From the NCBI GenBank assembly GCA_020201075.1, contig JAIVHL010000004.1, positions 1 through 33,259 of the forward strand: a stretch of 33,259 nt of DNA, given 5' to 3'. Position 1 is the stretch's first letter. Each line of letters opens with the position of its first letter. Under the pieces are notes generated by a model. It made no database searches. It was not told where the DNA came from and worked only from the letters and a program-made list of their open reading frames with translations. The translations under genes and the position numbers were made by a program. Positions 2,534 to 28,697 of this stretch are shown in pieces. Source of the DNA: Halomonas sp. Its GTDB lineage: Bacteria; Pseudomonadota; Gammaproteobacteria; Pseudomonadales; Halomonadaceae.

Positions 2534-3705
2534 TCAGGGCGACGACATTAGCTTCAGTGTGAAGCCGGCAGCCTGCTGGTAGCTGCACTCCTGCTCCAAG
2601 TCCGTGAGCAGCAGCATGGGGTGGCCTGGTCGTCGTCGAGCCCCCAGGCGTCGCGTACCTGATCGAACAGGGCAGCGGCGCTGGTGGCCACGTTGGTCGC
2701 CTGACGCTCATCCACCCCGTAGCGGCGTTCGAGCAGCTCCAGGCTCTTGAGTCGAGAGTCCTCGGGGCTGTTGCGCCCCGCCATGTCGTAGAGCACCCCC
2801 TCGCGCAGAGCGCCGTCGGCGTAACGCATCTCTGCCAGGCCGAAGGCCTCGAAGACGGCGCCGAGTACCGCGATGCCGGCGGGAAAGACCCTGGCCCGGT
2901 CGGGCTTGAGACCCTCCATGGAGACCTTGTCGAGGCGCTTGCAGCGGATCAGCCGCTCGCGCAGGGCGGCGAGTCCCTCCCGGGTGATCACACCTTCGGT
3001 GGCGTCTCCGGCGGCGTGGATCACCGCAGCGGCCGCCTTGATAGTGCCGCTGGAGCCTACCGGGTCCTCCCAGCCCAACTCGCGGTACTGGCGGCGGATA
3101 TTGGCCAGCTCCGAGAGCGCGGCGAGTTCTGCCTTGCGCATGCGTTTGTCGGTGATCTCTCCATTTTCGAAGAAGCGCCGGGTGAAGGTCACGCAGCCCA
3201 TTCGCAGACTCTCCAGCGCCAGCGGCTCGAAGCGCTCGCCGATGATGAATTCGGTGGAGCCCCCACCGATATCGACAATCAACCGGCGCCCTCCCTCGGC
3301 CAGGGCGTGGGCAGCTCCCAGGTAGATTAGACGCGCTTCTTCACGTCCGGCGATGATCTCGATGGGGCACTTGAGCAGTGCCTCGGCGCGTTCGATCAGC
3401 GCCTGGCTGTTGGCTGCATCTCGCAGGGCATTGGTGCCCACCACCCTGAGCTGTCCCGGGGCGATGTCTTCCACGAAGGGAGCGAAGCGGGCCAGGCAGT
3501 CAAGGGCTCGTCCCATGGTTACCTCGTCTAGCAGGCCCTCCTCGTCGAGGCCGGCCGCCAGCTGCACCTTTTCTCCCTGTCGTGCCACCACCTGCAGACG
3601 CTCATCCTGATAGTTAGCGACCAACAGGTGGAAACTGTTGGAGCCCAGATCGATAGCGGCGAGGCGTCGGGTGGGGGGCAGAGCCGGCTCCACTGGCGAG
3701 GTCAT
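2534..3705 (-). pseudogene. ppx: Exopolyphosphatase (Ppx/GppA family) with internal deletion and frame loss
   Basis: N-terminal part (AAIDLGSNSFHLLVANY, VDIGGGSTEFIIGE, SSGTIKAAAAV) is intact to ...DAWGLDDDQA, then becomes non-homologous and stops at 2554. A Ppx-like C-terminal peptide HPMLLLTDLEQECSYQQAAGFTLKLMSSP* is encoded in another frame immediately after the junction (~2621-2632) and stops at 2534. Confidence 0.85.
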
Positions 3706-4136: not shown

Positions 4137-6212
4137 ATGAATCTTACCGACCTCAAGCAAAAGTCCGTGCCAGATCTCCTGGAGATCGCCCGCGAGATGG
4201 GCATCGATAACCTGGCGCGCTCCCGCAAGCAGGACATCATCTTTGCCATTCTCAAGAAGCACGCCAAAAGCGGTGAGCCAATTTACGGCGACGGCGTGCT
4301 GGAGATTCTGCAGGATGGGTTCGGCTTCCTTCGCAGCGCCGACAGCTCCTATCTGGCCGGACCCGATGACATCTACGTCTCGCCTTCCCAGATCAGGCGT
4401 TTCAACCTGCGCAAGGGTGACTCGATCTCCGGCAAGATCCGACCGCCCAAGGAGGGCGAGCGCTACTTCGCGCTGCTGAAGGTCAATGACATCAACTTTG
4501 ACCGCCCGGAGAACGCCAAGCACAAGATCCTGTTCGAGAACCTCACGCCGCTGTTCCCCGATGAGCGCCTGCGCATGGAGATCGGCAACGGTTCCACAGA
4601 GGATCTCACGGCGCGAATAATCGATCTCACAGCGCCGATCGGCAAGGGCCAGCGCGGTTTGCTGGTCTCTCCGCCCAAGGCGGGCAAGACGCTGATGCTG
4701 CAGAACATTGCCACCTCTATCACCCGCAACAGCCCAGAGTGCCACCTGATCGTGCTGCTGATCGACGAGCGCCCGGAAGAGGTGACGGAGATGTCGCGTA
4801 CCGTGCGCGGCGAGGTGGTGGCCTCGACCTTCGACGAGCCGCCGGCACGCCACGTGCAGGTGGCCGAGATGGTGATCGAGAAGGCCAAGCGGCTGGTCGA
4901 GCACAAGAAGGACGTAGTGATTCTGCTGGACTCCATCACCCGTCTCGCCCGCGCCTACAATACCGTGGTCCCGAGCTCCGGCAAGGTGCTCACCGGCGGC
5001 GTGGACGCCCATGCCCTGGAGAAGCCCAAGCGCTTCTTCGGCGCGGCGCGCAACATTGAAGAGGGCGGCAGCCTGACCATCATCGCCACGGCGCTGGTGG
5101 ATACCGGCTCCAAGATGGACGAAGTGATCTTCGAGGAGTTCAAAGGCACCGGCAACATGGAAGCTCACCTGGATCGCAAGCTGGCCGAGCGCCGCGTCTA
5201 CCCGGCGATGAATATTCGCCGTTCCGGTACTCGCCGCGAGGACCTGCTCGCCTCCGAGGACGAGATGCAGCGCATGTGGATCCTGCGCAAGCTGCTCAAT
5301 CCCATGGAAGACACCGCAGCCACGGAGTTCCTGATCGATCGCCTCAAGGATACCAAGACGAACCTGCCGGGAAAACCGAATGAAGTACAAGGACCTGCGA
5401 GACTTCATCAGCGCCCTGGAGGCCCGGGGCGAACTCCAGCGCATTACCGCCGAGGTGGACCCCTACCTCGAGATCACCGAGATCTGCGACCGCACCCTGC
5501 GTGCCGGTGGCCCGGCGCTGCTGTTCGAGAACGTCAAAGGCCACGATATGCCGCTGCTTGGCAATCTCTTTGGTACGCCGAAGCGAGTTGCCCTGGGCAT
5601 GGGCCAGGATTCCGTGGCCGCCCTGCGCGAGGTGGGCGAGCTGCTGGCCTTTCTCAAGGAGCCGGAGCCTCCCAAAGGCTTCCGCGACGCCTGGGACAAG
5701 CTGCCGATCTTCAAGCAGGTGATGAGCATGGGGCCGAAGAAGGTCCGCTCGGCACCGGTACAGGAGAGGGTCTACGAGGCCGACGAGGTGGATCTCGGCC
5801 TATTGCCGATCCAGCACTGCTGGCCGGGCGACGTCGCCCCGCTGGTCACCTGGCCGCTGGTGATCACCCGCGGTCCCCACAAGAGGCGCCAGAATCTAGG
5901 CATCTATCGCCAGCAGAAGCTGGGCAGGAATCGCTTGATCATGCGCTGGCTCTCCCACCGCGGCGGCGCCCTGGACTTCCAGGAGTTCCAGAAGGCGCAC
6001 CCCGGCGAGCCCTTTCCAGTGGCCGTGGCATTGGGCGCCGATCCGGCGACCATCCTCGGCGCGGTGACGCCGGTGCCCGACTCGCTTTCCGAATATGCCT
6101 TCGCCGGGCTGCTGAGAGGTTCGCGTACCGAGCTGGTCCAGTGCGGCCACGCCGATCTGGAGGTGCCGGCTTCGGCGGAGATCATCCTGGAGGGTTTCAT
6201 CTATCCGGATGA
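4137..6212 (+). CDS. rho: Transcription termination factor Rho; native homology ends at ~5363, the rest of the ORF is out-of-frame read-through into ubiD
   Basis: [40 protein letters not shown] start; Walker [11 protein letters not shown]; ...[16 protein letters not shown] then non-Rho sequence. ORF-track start at 3990 is an upstream extension; the ATG at 4137 matches the canonical Rho N-terminus. Confidence 0.93.
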
Positions 6213-6867
6213 CACGGCCCCGGAAGGCCCTTACGGCGACCACACCGGCTACTACAACGAGATCGACCACTTCCCGGTGTTCACGGTGACGCGCATGACC
6301 ATGCGCCGTGACGCTATCTATCACTCCACCTACACCGGTCGGCCACCCGACGAACCGGCGATCCTGGGCCTCGCGCTGAACGAAGTGTTCGTGCCGATCC
6401 TGCGCCGCCAGTTCCCGGAGATCGTCGATTTCTATCTGCCACCGGAAGGCTGTTCCTACCGCATGGCGGTGGTGACCATGAAGAAGCAATACCCGGGCCA
6501 CGCCAAACGGGTGATGATGGGCGTATGGAGCTTCCTGCGCCAGTTCATGTACACCAAGTTCGTGGTGGTGCTCGATGACGACGTCAGCGCCAGGGACTGG
6601 AAGGACGTGATCTGGGCCATCACCACGCGCATGGATCCGGCCCGGGATACTGTGCTGGTGGAGAATACCCCTATCGACTATCTGGATTTCGCATCGCCGG
6701 TCTCCGGCCTGGGGTCCAAGATGGGCATGGATGCCACCAGCAAGTGGCCCGGTGAGACCGACCGCGAATGGGGAGTGCCCATTGTGATGGACGAGGCCGT
6801 CAAGGCCCGCGTCAGCGAGCGCTGGAACGAGCTGGGTATCGAGCTTCCCGATAACACGACCCCCTGA
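5380..6867 (+). CDS. ubiD: 4-hydroxy-3-polyprenylbenzoate decarboxylase (UbiD)
   Basis: 495 aa; [22 protein letters not shown] start, [28 protein letters not shown]; full length. Confidence 0.96.
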
Positions 6868-7665: not shown

Positions 7666-8375
7666 GCGCCTCGCCGATCCTGATCACCGGCGGCGCTCAG
7701 CGTCTCGGGCGTCACTGCGCCGAGCGTCTGGTCGACGACGGCCATCCGGTGATCATCAGCTATCGCCGTGAGCGGCCCGAACTCGACGCGCTGCGGGAGC
7801 GGGGCATCGTCACCTTGCCGGCCGATTTCTCGACCGAGGCGGGTATCCTCGATTTTCTTGAGCGGCTCAAAGCCGAGACCTCGTCGCTGCGGGCCATCGT
7901 CCACAACGCCAGCGACTGGGCGCCGGATTCCAGCGGCCCCGAGGCCGGCGGTACTTTCGAGCGACTGTTCCGGGTGCATATGCTGGCCCCCTACCTGATC
8001 AATCTACACGCCCGCGAACTGCTCGAAGCGTGCAGCGAGCCCCAGCGCGATATCGTGCATATGACCGACTATGTGGTGCAGAAGGGCTCGAAAAAGCACG
8101 CGGCCTACGCCGCCAGCAAGGCGGGGCTGGACAACCTGACCCTGTCGTTCGCCGCCATGTATGCGCCGGCAATTCAGGTCAATGCCATCGCGCCGGCGCT
8201 TATCATGCTCAACGAGGGCGACGACGAGGCCTACGCGGAGAAGGCCCGCGCCAAATCCGCCATGGAAATGGTTCCCGGGCCTGGGGTGATCTATCAGAGC
8301 CTGCGCTACCTGCTCGACAACCGCTTTGTGACAGGCGTCACCCTGCCCGTGGACGGTGGGCGCCACTTGCGCTGA
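7662..8375 (+). CDS. folM: Short-chain dehydrogenase, probable dihydromonapterin reductase (FolM)
   Basis: 237 aa; LITGGAQRLGRHCAERL, YAASKAGLDNLTLSFA, VTLPVDGGRHL; ATGA overlap with the upstream gene. Confidence 0.8.
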   Translation: MSASPILITGGAQRLGRHCAERLVDDGHPVIISYRRERPELDALRERGIVTLPADFSTEAGILDFLERLKAETSSLRAIVHNASDWAPDSSGPEAGGTFERLFRVHMLAPYLINLHARELLEACSEPQRDIVHMTDYVVQKGSKKHAAYAASKAGLDNLTLSFAAMYAPAIQVNAIAPALIMLNEGDDEAYAEKARAKSAMEMVPGPGVIYQSLRYLLDNRFVTGVTLPVDGGRHLR

Positions 8376-8461
8376 GCCGCGCCCCGGGGGTTTTGCGTTC
8401 CGAGCCAGTCGATTCCACCCGAACATCACCACATATGACCACCACTCGGAGTTGATGACCC

Positions 8462-9487
8462 ATGAACCCTTCCCCTGCCGCCGCCCCCACCCAGACTGAT
8501 CCGGACGCCGTCGCGCAGGAGACTGCCGGTTCGGGGGGCGCCGCGTCAGCCATTTCCCGCCGTCTGCTGCCAACGGCCGGCGAGTTACGCCGCGCCCTGC
8601 CGCTGGGAGCCGACTTGGCTCGACAGATTGAGGAGCAGCGCCAGGCCATCCGCGACATTTTCGCCGGCCGCGATGACCGCCTGCTGGTGGTCGTCGGCCC
8701 CTGCTCCATCCACGATCCCCAGGCGGCTCTGGAATACGCTCGCCGCCTGGCCGCGCTTTCCGCGCAGGTGTCCGACCGCCTGGTGCTGGTCATGCGGGTC
8801 TACGTGGAGAAGCCGCGCACTACCGTGGGTTGGAAGGGGCTGGCCTATGATCCGAGTCTGGACGGCAGCGATGACATGGCCCGCGGCCTCGACGTCTCCC
8901 GGGAGCTGATGCGCGAGATAGCCGCGTTGGGCCTGCCGGTGGCCACCGAGCTGTTGCAGCCGATGCTGGCCCCCTACCTGGAGGACCTGCTGTCCTGGGT
9001 GGCCATCGGCGCCCGCACGACGGAATCCCAGCTGCACCGCGAACTGGCCAGCGGCCTCGACGCCGTGGTCGGTTTCAAGAATGCCACCGGCGGTGACACC
9101 GGGGTGGTCCTGGACGCGATGCGCGCCGCTGCTCACCCTCACAGCCATTTCGGTCTGGACCCGGAGGGTCGCCCGGTGGTCCAGCAGACTGCCGGCAACG
9201 CCCACACTCACCTGGTGCTGCGCGGGGGCCACGGCGAGCCCAACTATACGACCGCTCACGTACAGGCGGCGCGCCGCGCGCTGGAGGAGGCCGGGCTCAC
9301 CCCGAGAATGATGGTGGACTGCAGCCATGCCAACGCCCGCAAGGACCACCGCCGCCAGAGCCAGGTGTTCCTCGATGTGCTGGCCCAGCGCCTGGGGGGG
9401 GAGACCGCCCTGGCCGGGCTGATGATCGAGAGCCACCTGCACGAGGGCAAGCAGGCGCTGGCGCCTGGCCGGTTAAGGGCCGACTGA
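8462..9487 (+). CDS. 3-deoxy-7-phosphoheptulonate synthase (class I DAHP synthase), C-terminally truncated
   Basis: 341 aa; VVVGPCSIHDPQAALEYA, RVYVEKPRTTVGWKG, MVDCSHANARKDHRRQ, IESHLHEGKQAL, then APGRLRAD*. The usual ...YG.SITDACIGW..T..LL C-terminal segment is absent. Confidence 0.92.
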   Translation: MNPSPAAAPTQTDPDAVAQETAGSGGAASAISRRLLPTAGELRRALPLGADLARQIEEQRQAIRDIFAGRDDRLLVVVGPCSIHDPQAALEYARRLAALSAQVSDRLVLVMRVYVEKPRTTVGWKGLAYDPSLDGSDDMARGLDVSRELMREIAALGLPVATELLQPMLAPYLEDLLSWVAIGARTTESQLHRELASGLDAVVGFKNATGGDTGVVLDAMRAAAHPHSHFGLDPEGRPVVQQTAGNAHTHLVLRGGHGEPNYTTAHVQAARRALEEAGLTPRMMVDCSHANARKDHRRQSQVFLDVLAQRLGGETALAGLMIESHLHEGKQALAPGRLRAD

Positions 9488-14286: not shown

Positions 14287-15063
14287 CTAATCTCTCTCCG
14301 TCTCGCCTTGCGCTTCGCGGCGTTGCTTCTTGCGCTGAGCCAGGCGACCGAACAGCAGGCCGACTTCGTACAGCAGGTACATGGGTATTGCGAGGAGGCT
14401 TTGGGAGATCACGTCAGGCGGGGTGAGCAGCATCCCCACCACGAAGCAACCGAGGATGATGTAGGGCCGCTTCTTGGAGAGGCTCTCCACGGTGGTGGCG
14501 CCTGAGGCGATCAGCAGAAAGGTGGCGATGGGGATCTCGAAGGCGACGCCAAAAGCGAAGAACAGTTTGAGAACGAAGTTGAGATAGGAGTTGATATCGG
14601 TCATCACCGCCACGTTCTCCGGCCCGGTCTGGGTGAAGAACTGGAACAGTAGCGGGAAGACCACGTAGTAGGCAAAGGCAGCTCCGGCGTAGAACAGCAT
14701 CACGCTGGAAGCCAGGATCGGCATCGCCAGGGCCTTCTCGTTGTCATAGAGGCCAGGTGCCACGAAGGCCCAGGCTTGGTGAAGCACATAGGGAATGGCG
14801 ATGAACACCGCCACCACCAGGGTCAGCTTGAAGGGTGCCAGAAAAGGCGAGGCTACTTCGGTGGCGATCATCTGGGAACCTTCCGGCAGCAGCGCCATCA
14901 GCGGCTGAGCGACGAAGGTGTAGATGTCATTGGCGAAGGCGTAAAGACCCAGGAAGATCACCAGGATCGCCACAACGGCGCGCAGCAGGCGCGAGCGCAG
15001 CTCGATCAGGTGTTCAATCAGCGTGGCCTGCTGCTGTTCCGGGCTGTCACCGGTCTTGCTCAT
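14287..15063 (-). CDS. tatC: Sec-independent protein translocase TatC
   Basis: 258 aa; LIEHLIELRSRLLRAVVAIL, FKLTLVVAVFIAIPYVLHQAWAFVAPGLY. Confidence 0.96.
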   Translation of the reverse strand: MSKTGDSPEQQQATLIEHLIELRSRLLRAVVAILVIFLGLYAFANDIYTFVAQPLMALLPEGSQMIATEVASPFLAPFKLTLVVAVFIAIPYVLHQAWAFVAPGLYDNEKALAMPILASSVMLFYAGAAFAYYVVFPLLFQFFTQTGPENVAVMTDINSYLNFVLKLFFAFGVAFEIPIATFLLIASGATTVESLSKKRPYIILGCFVVGMLLTPPDVISQSLLAIPMYLLYEVGLLFGRLAQRKKQRREAQGETERD

Positions 15064-15135
15064 CGTGGGGAAGCGTCCTTGTCGGCAGCGGAAGGCACGG
15101 GGCGTTCATCGGGACGTTTATCGGGGCCATCATCG

Positions 15136-15207
15136 CCGTCTGAGCCGTCTGAGCCGTCTGAGCCGTCTGAGCCGTCTGAGCCGTCTGAGCCGTCTGAGCC
15201 GTCTGAG
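15136..15207. repeat. Minisatellite: 8 perfect tandem copies of the 9-bp unit CCGTCTGAG plus a partial copy
   Basis: Copies start at 15136, 15145, 15154, 15163, 15172, 15181, 15190 and 15199; partial ccgtc at 15208. Confidence 0.98.
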
Positions 15208-15210
15208 CCG

Positions 15211-15501
15211 TCACGGCGGGCACGGGCCAGGGCGGCGGTCGGGCTCGGCGATGCTTTCCACGTCGCGCTGAACCTGGCGCACGCTTTCGTCGAGCTTCTT
15301 CTGTTGCTCGTTGAGTTTCTGGCGCAGTTCTTCCGCCTCCAACTGGGCACTGATGTCACGCTGCATGCCCGAGACGGTTCGCTTGATCTTGCCGATCCAC
15401 AGCCCGAGGGTGCGTGCTGCCTTGGGCAACCGCTCCGGGCCGAGCACCAGCAGGCCAACTACGCCGATGAACATGAGTTCGAGAAAACCGATGTCAAACA
15501 T
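15211..15501 (-). CDS. tatB: Sec-independent protein translocase TatB, frameshifted near its C-terminus
   Basis: MFDIGFLELMFIGVVGLLVLGPERLPKAARTLGLWIGKIKRTVSGMQRDI. The ORF ends at 15211; the likely native tail (..ALARARRDGSDGSD...ADKDASPR*) lies in another frame and ends at 15060 with an ATGA overlap with tatC. Confidence 0.9.
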   Translation of the reverse strand: MFDIGFLELMFIGVVGLLVLGPERLPKAARTLGLWIGKIKRTVSGMQRDISAQLEAEELRQKLNEQQKKLDESVRQVQRDVESIAEPDRRPGPCPP

Positions 15502-19397: not shown

Positions 19398-19781
19398 TTA
19401 GAGCTGCTTGATCTCGATGCCCAGCGGCTCACGGCTAGCGCCGGCGTCCGCCAGGCGCTGCAGGTAGTCCTCCCAGTTGGTCTCACGATGCTCGATCAGC
19501 CACCACAGGTAGTCCCAGCTGAAGAGGCCGCTGTCATGGCCGTCGTCGAAGTGCAGCTTGAGGGCATAGCGGCCGGTCTGGGTGATGTCCTTGAGGCCGA
19601 CGAATTTCTTACCCACCTGCAGGGTGGCGGTATCGCGGCCGTGGCCGCGCACCTCGGCGGAGGGGGAGAAAACCCTGAGATACTCGATGGACAGGCGGTG
19701 ACTCTGGCCGTCGGCGTAGCCGAGCTCTAGCTCCTGGGCCTTGCGGTGGTAATGCACTCGGGTCGGGATAGGGGCTGTCAT
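19398..19781 (-). CDS. DUF971 domain protein (gamma-butyrobetaine hydroxylase-like N-terminal domain)
   Basis: 127 aa; [41 protein letters not shown] overlap with hslU. Confidence 0.88.
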
Positions 19782-21100
19782 AGGATATACCGCGACAGGT
19801 CCTCGTCCTTGGCCAGTTCGCCGAGCTGGGAATCCACATAGTCGGCGTCGATGGTCAGCGGTGTGCCGACATCGCTGCCTCTGAATGAGGCTTCTTCAAG
19901 CAGGCGCTCCATCACGGTATGCAGCCGGCGCGCGCCGATGTTCTCGGTGCCCTCGTTGACCTGCCAGGCGATCTCGGCGATGCGCTCAATGCCATCCGGG
20001 GTAAATTCGATCGCCAGCCCTTCGGTGGCCAACAGCGCCTGGTACTGTCGTGTCAGCGAGGCGGACGGCTCGGTGAGGATGCGCTTGAAGTCCTCCGGCG
20101 TCAGGGCGTTGAGCTCAACGCGAATCGGCAGGCGACCCTGCAGCTCGGGTATCAGGTCCGAAGGGCGCGACAGGTGGAAGGCACCGGAGGCGATGAACAA
20201 GATGTGGTCGGTCTTCACCATGCCGTGTTTGGTGGACACCGTGGAACCCTCGATCAGCGGCAGGAGGTCGCGCTGCACGCCCTCGCGGGAGACCTCACCA
20301 CCGCTGGACTGGCCGCTGCCTTTGGTGACCTTGTCGATCTCGTCGAGGAAGACGATGCCGTGCTGCTCCACCGCCTCGATGGCGCGCGCCTTGATCTCCT
20401 CCTGGTTGATCAGCTTGCTGGCTTCTTCGTCACGCAGCAGGGCGAAAGCATCCTTGACCGAGACTCGACGGGTCTCGGTCTTCTGCTTGCCCATGCCGGA
20501 GAACAGGCTCGAAAGCTGCTGCGTCATCTCCTCCATGCCCGGCGGGGTCATGATGTCGACGTTGGGGCCCTGTTGGGTGAGCTCGATGTCGATTTCCTTG
20601 TCATCGAGCTGACCCTCGCGCAGTTTCTTGCGAAATATCTGGCGAGTCGAGCTGTCCTGGCGAGGCTCATCCTCCTGACCGCGAGGCGGCGGCAGGAGGG
20701 CGTCGAGGATGCGATCCTCGGCGGCGTCCTCGGCGCGGTGGCCCACCTCTTCTTTGGCCTGCTCGCGCACCAGCTTGATGGCGGCCTCGGTCAGGTCGCG
20801 GATGATCGAGTCGACGTCGCGGCCCACGTAGCCCACCTCGGTGAACTTGGTGGCCTCCACCTTGATGAAGGGCGCCTTCGCCAACTTGGCCAGGCGCCGG
20901 GCGATCTCGGTCTTGCCCACCCCGGTGGGACCGATCATCAGGATGTTCTTGGGCGTCACTTCCTGGCGGAGGTCGGCGTCGAGCTGCATGCGCCGCCAGC
21001 GGTTGCGCAGGGCGATGGCGACGGCGCGCTTGGCGTCCTGCTGGCCGATGATGTACTGGTCCAGGGCGTGGACGATCTCGCGGGGGGTCATCTGGGTCAT
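19778..21100 (-). CDS. hslU: ATP-dependent protease ATPase subunit HslU
   Basis: [55 protein letters not shown]; start at 21100. Confidence 0.97.
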
Positions 21101-24174: not shown

Positions 24175-24328
24175 GGAACGTTGATTGTCCTGTGGCGCCG
24201 AGCGGGGCGAACGGCCGATGAACCGGCGGTGACGAGGCGCTCGCCCGAGGCGCGGGAATGTAAGCGGGGCCTTGATGGGCACGGTCGGTCATTATCGGCA
24301 ATTGTGGTGCGGCTTTAAAGGGCGGTCT

Positions 24329-27244: not shown

Positions 27245-28513
27245 ATGAGTGACGCAAGACAGGCTGCGCTGGATTATCACGCTAAGCCGATTCCCGGAAA
27301 GCTCTCCGTTGAACTGACCAAGCCCACCGCCACTGCCAGGGATCTCGCCCTGGCTTACAGCCCGGGTGTAGCCGAGCCGGTACGCGAGATTGCCCGCGAC
27401 CCCGAGAATGCCTACCGCTATACCGGGAAGGGCAATCTAGTGGCGGTGATTTCCGACGGCACCGCTATCCTGGGGCTGGGCAATCTGGGTGCCTTGGCCA
27501 GTAAGCCGGTCATGGAAGGGAAGGGCGTACTGTTCAAACGCTTCGCCGGCATCAACTCCGTGGATATCGAGGTCAACTCCGAGAGCCCTCAGGCTTTCAT
27601 CGACACCGTGGCGCGCATTGCCGATACCTGGGGCGGCATCAATCTCGAGGATATCAAAGCGCCCGAATGCTTCGAGATCGAACAGGCGCTGATCGAGCAG
27701 TGCAACATTCCTGTTTTCCATGATGACCAGCACGGCACCGCCATCGTCACCGCGGCGGGCATGCTCAACGCCCTGGAGATCGCCGGTAAGCGCCTGGAAG
27801 AAGCGAATATTGTCTGCCTGGGAGCCGGTGCGGCGGCCATCGCCTGCATGAAGCTGCTGGTGGCTTGCGGTGCGCGAGCCGAAAATCTGGTAATGCTGGA
27901 TCGCAAAGGCGTTATTCATACCGGTCGCGAGGATCTCAACCCCTACAAATCGATGTTTGCCGTCGACACGGACAAGCGCACCCTGGACGATGCCATCGAC
28001 GGTGCCGATGTCTTCGTTGGGCTATCGGGGCCGGGGCTGATGACGGCCGACCATATTCGCAAGATGGCGCCCAATCCTGTGGTCTTTGCCTGCACGAATC
28101 CGGACCCGGAGATTCACCCGGACCTGGCCCGCGAAGTGCGCCCCGATGTGATCATGGCCACCGGCCGTTCGGACTACCCGAACCAGGTCAACAACGTGTT
28201 GGGCTTCCCCTTCATCTTTCGCGGGGCGCTCGACGTGCGTGCTGCCCGTATCAACGAGGAGATGAAGGTCGCCGCGGTCCACGCCCTCAAGGACCTGGCC
28301 CGCGAGCCGGTGCCCCAGGTGGTGCTGGACGCTTACGAGATGGAGGCGATGAGCTTCGGGCGCGAATACATCATCCCCACACCGGTGGATGTTCGCCTGC
28401 TCGAGCGAATTACCTCCGCGGTGGCCCAGGCGGCGGTGGATTCCGGCGTGGCGCGTCGGCCCTATCCGTCCCATTATCCCCTGAAGAGCGTGGACGACGT
28501 CTACGGTCTTTGA
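27245..28513 (+). CDS. maeB: NADP-dependent malic enzyme, short form without a phosphotransacetylase domain
   Basis: 422 aa; LALAYSPGVAEPVREIA, FHDDQHGTAIVTAAGMLNAL, GLSGPGLMT, ACTNPDPEI. Confidence 0.92.
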   Translation: MSDARQAALDYHAKPIPGKLSVELTKPTATARDLALAYSPGVAEPVREIARDPENAYRYTGKGNLVAVISDGTAILGLGNLGALASKPVMEGKGVLFKRFAGINSVDIEVNSESPQAFIDTVARIADTWGGINLEDIKAPECFEIEQALIEQCNIPVFHDDQHGTAIVTAAGMLNALEIAGKRLEEANIVCLGAGAAAIACMKLLVACGARAENLVMLDRKGVIHTGREDLNPYKSMFAVDTDKRTLDDAIDGADVFVGLSGPGLMTADHIRKMAPNPVVFACTNPDPEIHPDLAREVRPDVIMATGRSDYPNQVNNVLGFPFIFRGALDVRAARINEEMKVAAVHALKDLAREPVPQVVLDAYEMEAMSFGREYIIPTPVDVRLLERITSAVAQAAVDSGVARRPYPSHYPLKSVDDVYGL

Positions 28514-28559
28514 CGCCGTACCGGCTTGACCTGACCGCTGCCAACAATAAGAGATCAAC

Positions 28560-28590
28560 AAGAAGGCCGGCCCATCGGGCCGGCCTTCTT
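28560..28590. terminator. Intrinsic terminator downstream of maeB
   Basis: Perfect 14-bp stem aagaaggccggccc / gggccggccttctt with a 3-nt loop (atc). Confidence 0.88.
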
Positions 28591-28697
28591 GATTCAGTCG
28601 TGATGCCATGAGTCTGGGAGGGCAGACTTGTGCGCTTGCTGTGCGAAGCCGGTAGGCGCCAACAGTGCGGCGCCCCAGGAGTTTGGCAATCAGCGGC

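Follow-up and report, generated by a model that had tools for sequence, protein, structure and literature searches.

The DNA analyzed here, hereafter the window, is a contig in its entirety (C217; length, 33,259 bases) and belongs to a draft genome assembled into 260 contigs (2.81 Mb; completeness, 85.6%). The nearest relatives of the window are Halomonas and kin. On the plus strand, codons 1–409 of a canonical rho gene (4137..5363) encode the N-terminal and RNA-binding domains and the RecA-type ATPase domain of the protein, all of which are present (Pfam Rho_N, Rho_RNA_bind and ATP-synt_ab). Using phmmer, we found that residues 1–409 aligned without gaps to residues 1–409 of E. coli Rho, the chains of which (1pv4 among others) have 419 residues, and the missing part therefore corresponds to the last 10 Rho residues. 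Direct reading showed that Asn409 (ending at 5363) is followed by the bases CTGCCGGGAAAACCGA and then by the ATG of ubiD at position 5380; the deposited letters running across 5363 are ...AAGACGAACCTGCCGGGAAAACCGAATG... The ubiD gene (5380..6867, plus strand, 495 aa) is intact, as judged from its Pfam domains (UbiD, UbiD_C and UbiD_N) and from 80 related loci. The frame that begins with the ATG at 4137 stays open to a stop ending at 6212 and thus spans 691 aa, of which the 282 codons after Asn409 (5364..6212, plus strand) spuriously prolong the rho frame across ubiD, which is read there in the wrong frame. The junction lies within one contig, with no Ns at it. A previous sequence-only reading had described a Rho that is canonical to Asn409 and lacks its last ~10 codons, with no stop and a predicted product of 691 aa; direct reading confirmed both descriptions, and the ungapped alignment also confirmed the former.

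We compared this arrangement with that of related genomes. Among 24 other genomes of the same genus, 23 carried rho and ubiD on one contig, and one was left out because its rho runs off its contig. Within the 80 related named loci, the end of rho was readable in 70, and the window was furthermore aligned to five relatives. A tail of 10–13 residues of the type [LIDEAN][ED]FFxxM[KR]R, followed by a stop, was present in all 70 readable loci, and the same-genus rho ends read (I/L)EFFEAMKRR plus a stop. The matching blocks of rho and ubiD were 92–609 nt apart in 23/23 same-genus genomes; this is the comparison of spacers with sister genomes that the earlier reading had proposed, and it agrees with the claim made there that the normal rho stop, 3' end and spacer are missing. 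In the same-genus loci so read, a hairpin of the type AGGGGCAGCATGCTATGCTGCCCCTTT lies ahead of ubiD, and a folding energy of –25 kcal/mol (z –6.2) was obtained for one of these hairpins.

At the junction in the window (5363..5367), the rho tail (10 codons), the stop, the spacer and the terminator hairpin of relatives are all absent. The window is shorter here by about 280 nt compared with G006, by 129 nt compared with G003 and by 92 nt compared with G014; because the relatives belong to other species (rho DNA identity of 82–91% within the genus), the length of the missing rho–ubiD segment is only bracketed, and the exact breakpoint in rho is uncertain by a few bases. The absence of the conserved C-terminal tail of ~10 residues is no argument against the identity of rho, since we attribute it to lost sequence. 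No terminator-like site was found at the rho–ubiD junction of the window, and no second copy of the rho tail was found elsewhere in the source genome. Neither the junction nor an extended tail occurred in any of the 23 same-genus genomes or the 70 named loci. Recoding or frameshifting at the end of rho was also considered and rejected; the tail and stop are found in no other frame, and the sequence is simply absent.

There is nothing unusual about the long open frame in ubiD. It extends over 277 codons in the window when the count starts at the base preceding the ubiD start, and the same frame was open for 3 to 503 codons (median 36) in 38 related loci, with at least 277 codons in five of them (277, 277, 355, 497 and 503). 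Nothing beyond composition is needed to account for it. Selection for a long out-of-frame ORF was rejected given this variation in open length among relatives.

Alignment to relatives revealed four further junctions in the window. At the second (2622..2623), 343 nt are missing inside ppx (2554–3705, minus strand) and the frame is shifted. At the third (9472..9485), about 200–350 nt are missing, and an aroF-type DAHP synthase gene lacks the part encoding its C-terminus while the next gene lacks its 5' end. At the fourth (19781..19782), the interval separating hslU from the next gene on the minus strand is about 160–270 nt short, compared with four of the five relatives. The fifth (24320..24328) is intergenic and corresponds to 166 nt in G006; it could represent natural variation, as the G006 spacer contains a heptamer repeat. 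This spacer (L023, argS–priA) holds about ten GGCTTAC heptamers opposite 24320–24328, and none is present in the window.

Other features of the window also concern spacers and repeats. Compared with the five relatives, the spacers at 8373–8588 and 28507–28697 are replaced by unrelated or shorter sequence, with up to ~0.8 kb less; these differences are not clean joins and may be natural. The left contig end (1–170) consists of a dispersed intergenic repeat of ~115 nt, which has ~30 matches in the source genome and 19–42 matches in three relatives; one copy sits in the G006 spacer that is missing opposite 19781. The tatB/tatC region (15060–15270) contains a short tandem repeat that reads SEPSEP... 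or DGSDGS... in alternative frames.

We then sampled 12 other contigs (314 kb) of the source genome, bringing the total sequence read to 347 kb. Matching stretches for these contigs were taken from the complete genome G006 for eleven and from G003 for six. A clean loss was defined as a join at which one of the two aligned sequences has ≤20 nt and its counterpart ≥80 nt. In 389 kb of alignment, we counted 51 clean losses in the source genome and 6 in the relatives, where the comparisons with G006 and G003 are summed and some junctions are counted twice, such that a p-value based on such counts is no more than indicative; relative-to-relative controls were balanced (18:14 and 3:1). Compared with G006 alone, 32 losses were found in ~240 kb aligned, or roughly one per 7–8 kb, and most contigs examined in the source genome carried losses. 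Among the 29 losses shorter than 1 kb in this comparison, 18 were wholly within one gene, and 13 of these 18 shifted the frame (5/9/4 by length modulo 3). The coding share of the lost bases was 85.4%, compared with a background of 85.9%, and their GC content was 0.679, compared with 0.680. As regards coding sequence, frame and GC, the losses thus fall at random, with no sign of selection, and a few of them, mainly intergenic, may be natural. GC-dependent dropout was rejected, as there was no difference in GC.

The genes hit included ppx, mutS, polA, lolD, a lolC/E permease gene, apt, the aroF-type DAHP synthase gene, nadA, pdxJ, dxr and valS. In the loci on other contigs (L145–L164), clean losses have cut short many housekeeping genes or put them out of frame, including dxr, valS, polA, mutS, lolD and apt. 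Both dxr and valS are required for growth in such bacteria, and each is present as a single copy. The dxr reading frame changes at C95:10324, where the parts encoding residues 8–164 and 299–398 meet, and ~134 codons are missing. Similarly, residues 1–937 and 968–994 of valS are encoded in different frames, which meet at C204:11651, with ~30 codons missing; the further valS matches in the genome, which are weak (≤34% identity), are probably to a related synthetase. In nearly all broken genes, what is left showed about 73–96% protein identity and was nearly always free of stops. Because both flanks are well conserved and almost without stops, the broken genes are not decaying genes or old pseudogenes.

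Runs of 10, 41, 62 and 180 Ns were present in the 347 kb read, and the assembly thus holds scaffold gaps. Only two of these runs were measurable, namely those of 10 and 180 Ns, which correspond to 135 and 471 nt, respectively, in a relative; gap lengths are therefore underestimated by some 125–290 nt. Because the same type of junction breaks dxr, valS, ppx, aroF, polA, mutS and lol genes, we ascribe the rho–ubiD junction to a technical cause. We hold with very high confidence that it is an assembly artefact, in which contigs were abutted over a short unsequenced gap without Ns. Neighboring contigs would have been set side by side over a gap of ~0.1–0.6 kb, going by the relatives, and a scaffolding or gap-closing step would have written no Ns. 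Gaps estimated at zero or less may have been turned into direct joins at 5363 and elsewhere; alternatively, Ns may have been removed in a later step, which would have the same appearance. We infer the exact software step from the two measured N-runs. In either case, the record would have lost the 3' end of rho together with the stop, the terminator and the rho–ubiD spacer, such that the rho frame appears to run into ubiD.

The arrangement could instead be a real deletion, in which the last 10 codons of rho were removed along with its stop and terminator; the product would then be a Rho of 691 aa bearing an unrelated tail, and the same transcript would also serve for translation of ubiD in its own frame. 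If this were true, the tail of Rho would come from an alternative ubiD frame, and loss of the terminator would couple rho and ubiD transcription. An N-free junction within one contig and a frame open for 282 codons are what such a deletion would leave. However, the recurrence of this junction type in the genes listed above, its absence from all relatives compared and an open frame of a length that composition alone can yield in GC-rich ubiD genes make a real deletion highly improbable. A real truncation with read-through was rejected, as the same defect is found in many unrelated and essential genes. We give next to no credence to the fixation of many deletions, that in rho included, in a genuinely decaying or reduced genome such as that of a host-restricted Halomonas. 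The 2.8-Mb assembly is smaller than those of most relatives (2.6–5.0 Mb) and most contigs examined show losses, but this small size also fits the completeness of 85.6%, and the N-runs reveal scaffold gaps. Moreover, the losses are heedless of gene boundaries and frame, the conserved flanks of broken genes contain almost no stops, and the only dxr and the only valS are among the broken genes.

Another form of misassembly, such as the collapse of strain variants or dispersed repeats, might have produced the junctions rather than scaffold joins without Ns, and the conclusion regarding Rho would be unchanged. Dispersed repeats do occur in the spacers of some relatives, and the left contig end is such a repeat. 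This explanation is nevertheless unlikely, as the repeat was assembled intact inside many contigs of the source genome and most losses are in coding sequence of average GC. For the same reason of intact assembly, we rejected the collapse of dispersed repeats as a general cause.

On the preferred reading of an N-less scaffold join, the Rho of the organism itself is most likely an ordinary protein of 419 aa with a LEFFEAMKRR-like end, its gene being succeeded first by an intrinsic terminator and then by ubiD. It is almost certain that no 691-aa Rho exists, and the extended form should not be annotated. Thus, the statement in the sequence-only reading that rho reads out of frame into ubiD holds for the deposited letters and, on present evidence, not for the organism. 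Of the two interpretations offered there, that of lost sequence receives strong support from clean losses that recur genome-wide and cut essential single-copy genes; the other, that Rho as a global termination factor has been modified in an extraordinary way, is not supported. The extended Rho is an assembly error, not real biology. This case serves as a warning that a contig of a species-representative draft genome can be free of Ns and yet contain silent joins. Fusions, truncations, frameshifts and overlapping genes in this genome, or in pangenome or gene-loss studies that use it, are not to be trusted without reads, and any claim of gene loss in it needs read support.

With respect to known systems, the deposited Rho and E. 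coli Rho (PDB 1pv4; Pfam PF07498, PF07497 and PF00006) share residues 1–409 without gaps and all domains; however, the final 10 residues and the stop are missing from the deposited sequence, which we ascribe to assembly. The order of rho and ubiD is the same as in Halomonas and other Halomonadaceae (e.g. G006), and rho shows the within-genus identity given above, whereas those loci contain the tail and its stop, and their spacer holds a GGGGCAGCATGCTATGCTGCCCC-type hairpin plus a T-run, all of which are lacking in the window. Gene truncations and fusions arise at scaffold gaps in draft assemblies, and a literature search on this subject returned no paper. As in such cases, the losses observed here are clean, ~0.1–0.5 kb in length and random in frame and position within genes, with N-runs present elsewhere. 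The difference from the usual cases is that most joins in the source genome carry no Ns at all, such that a gene finder meets fused or shifted frames.
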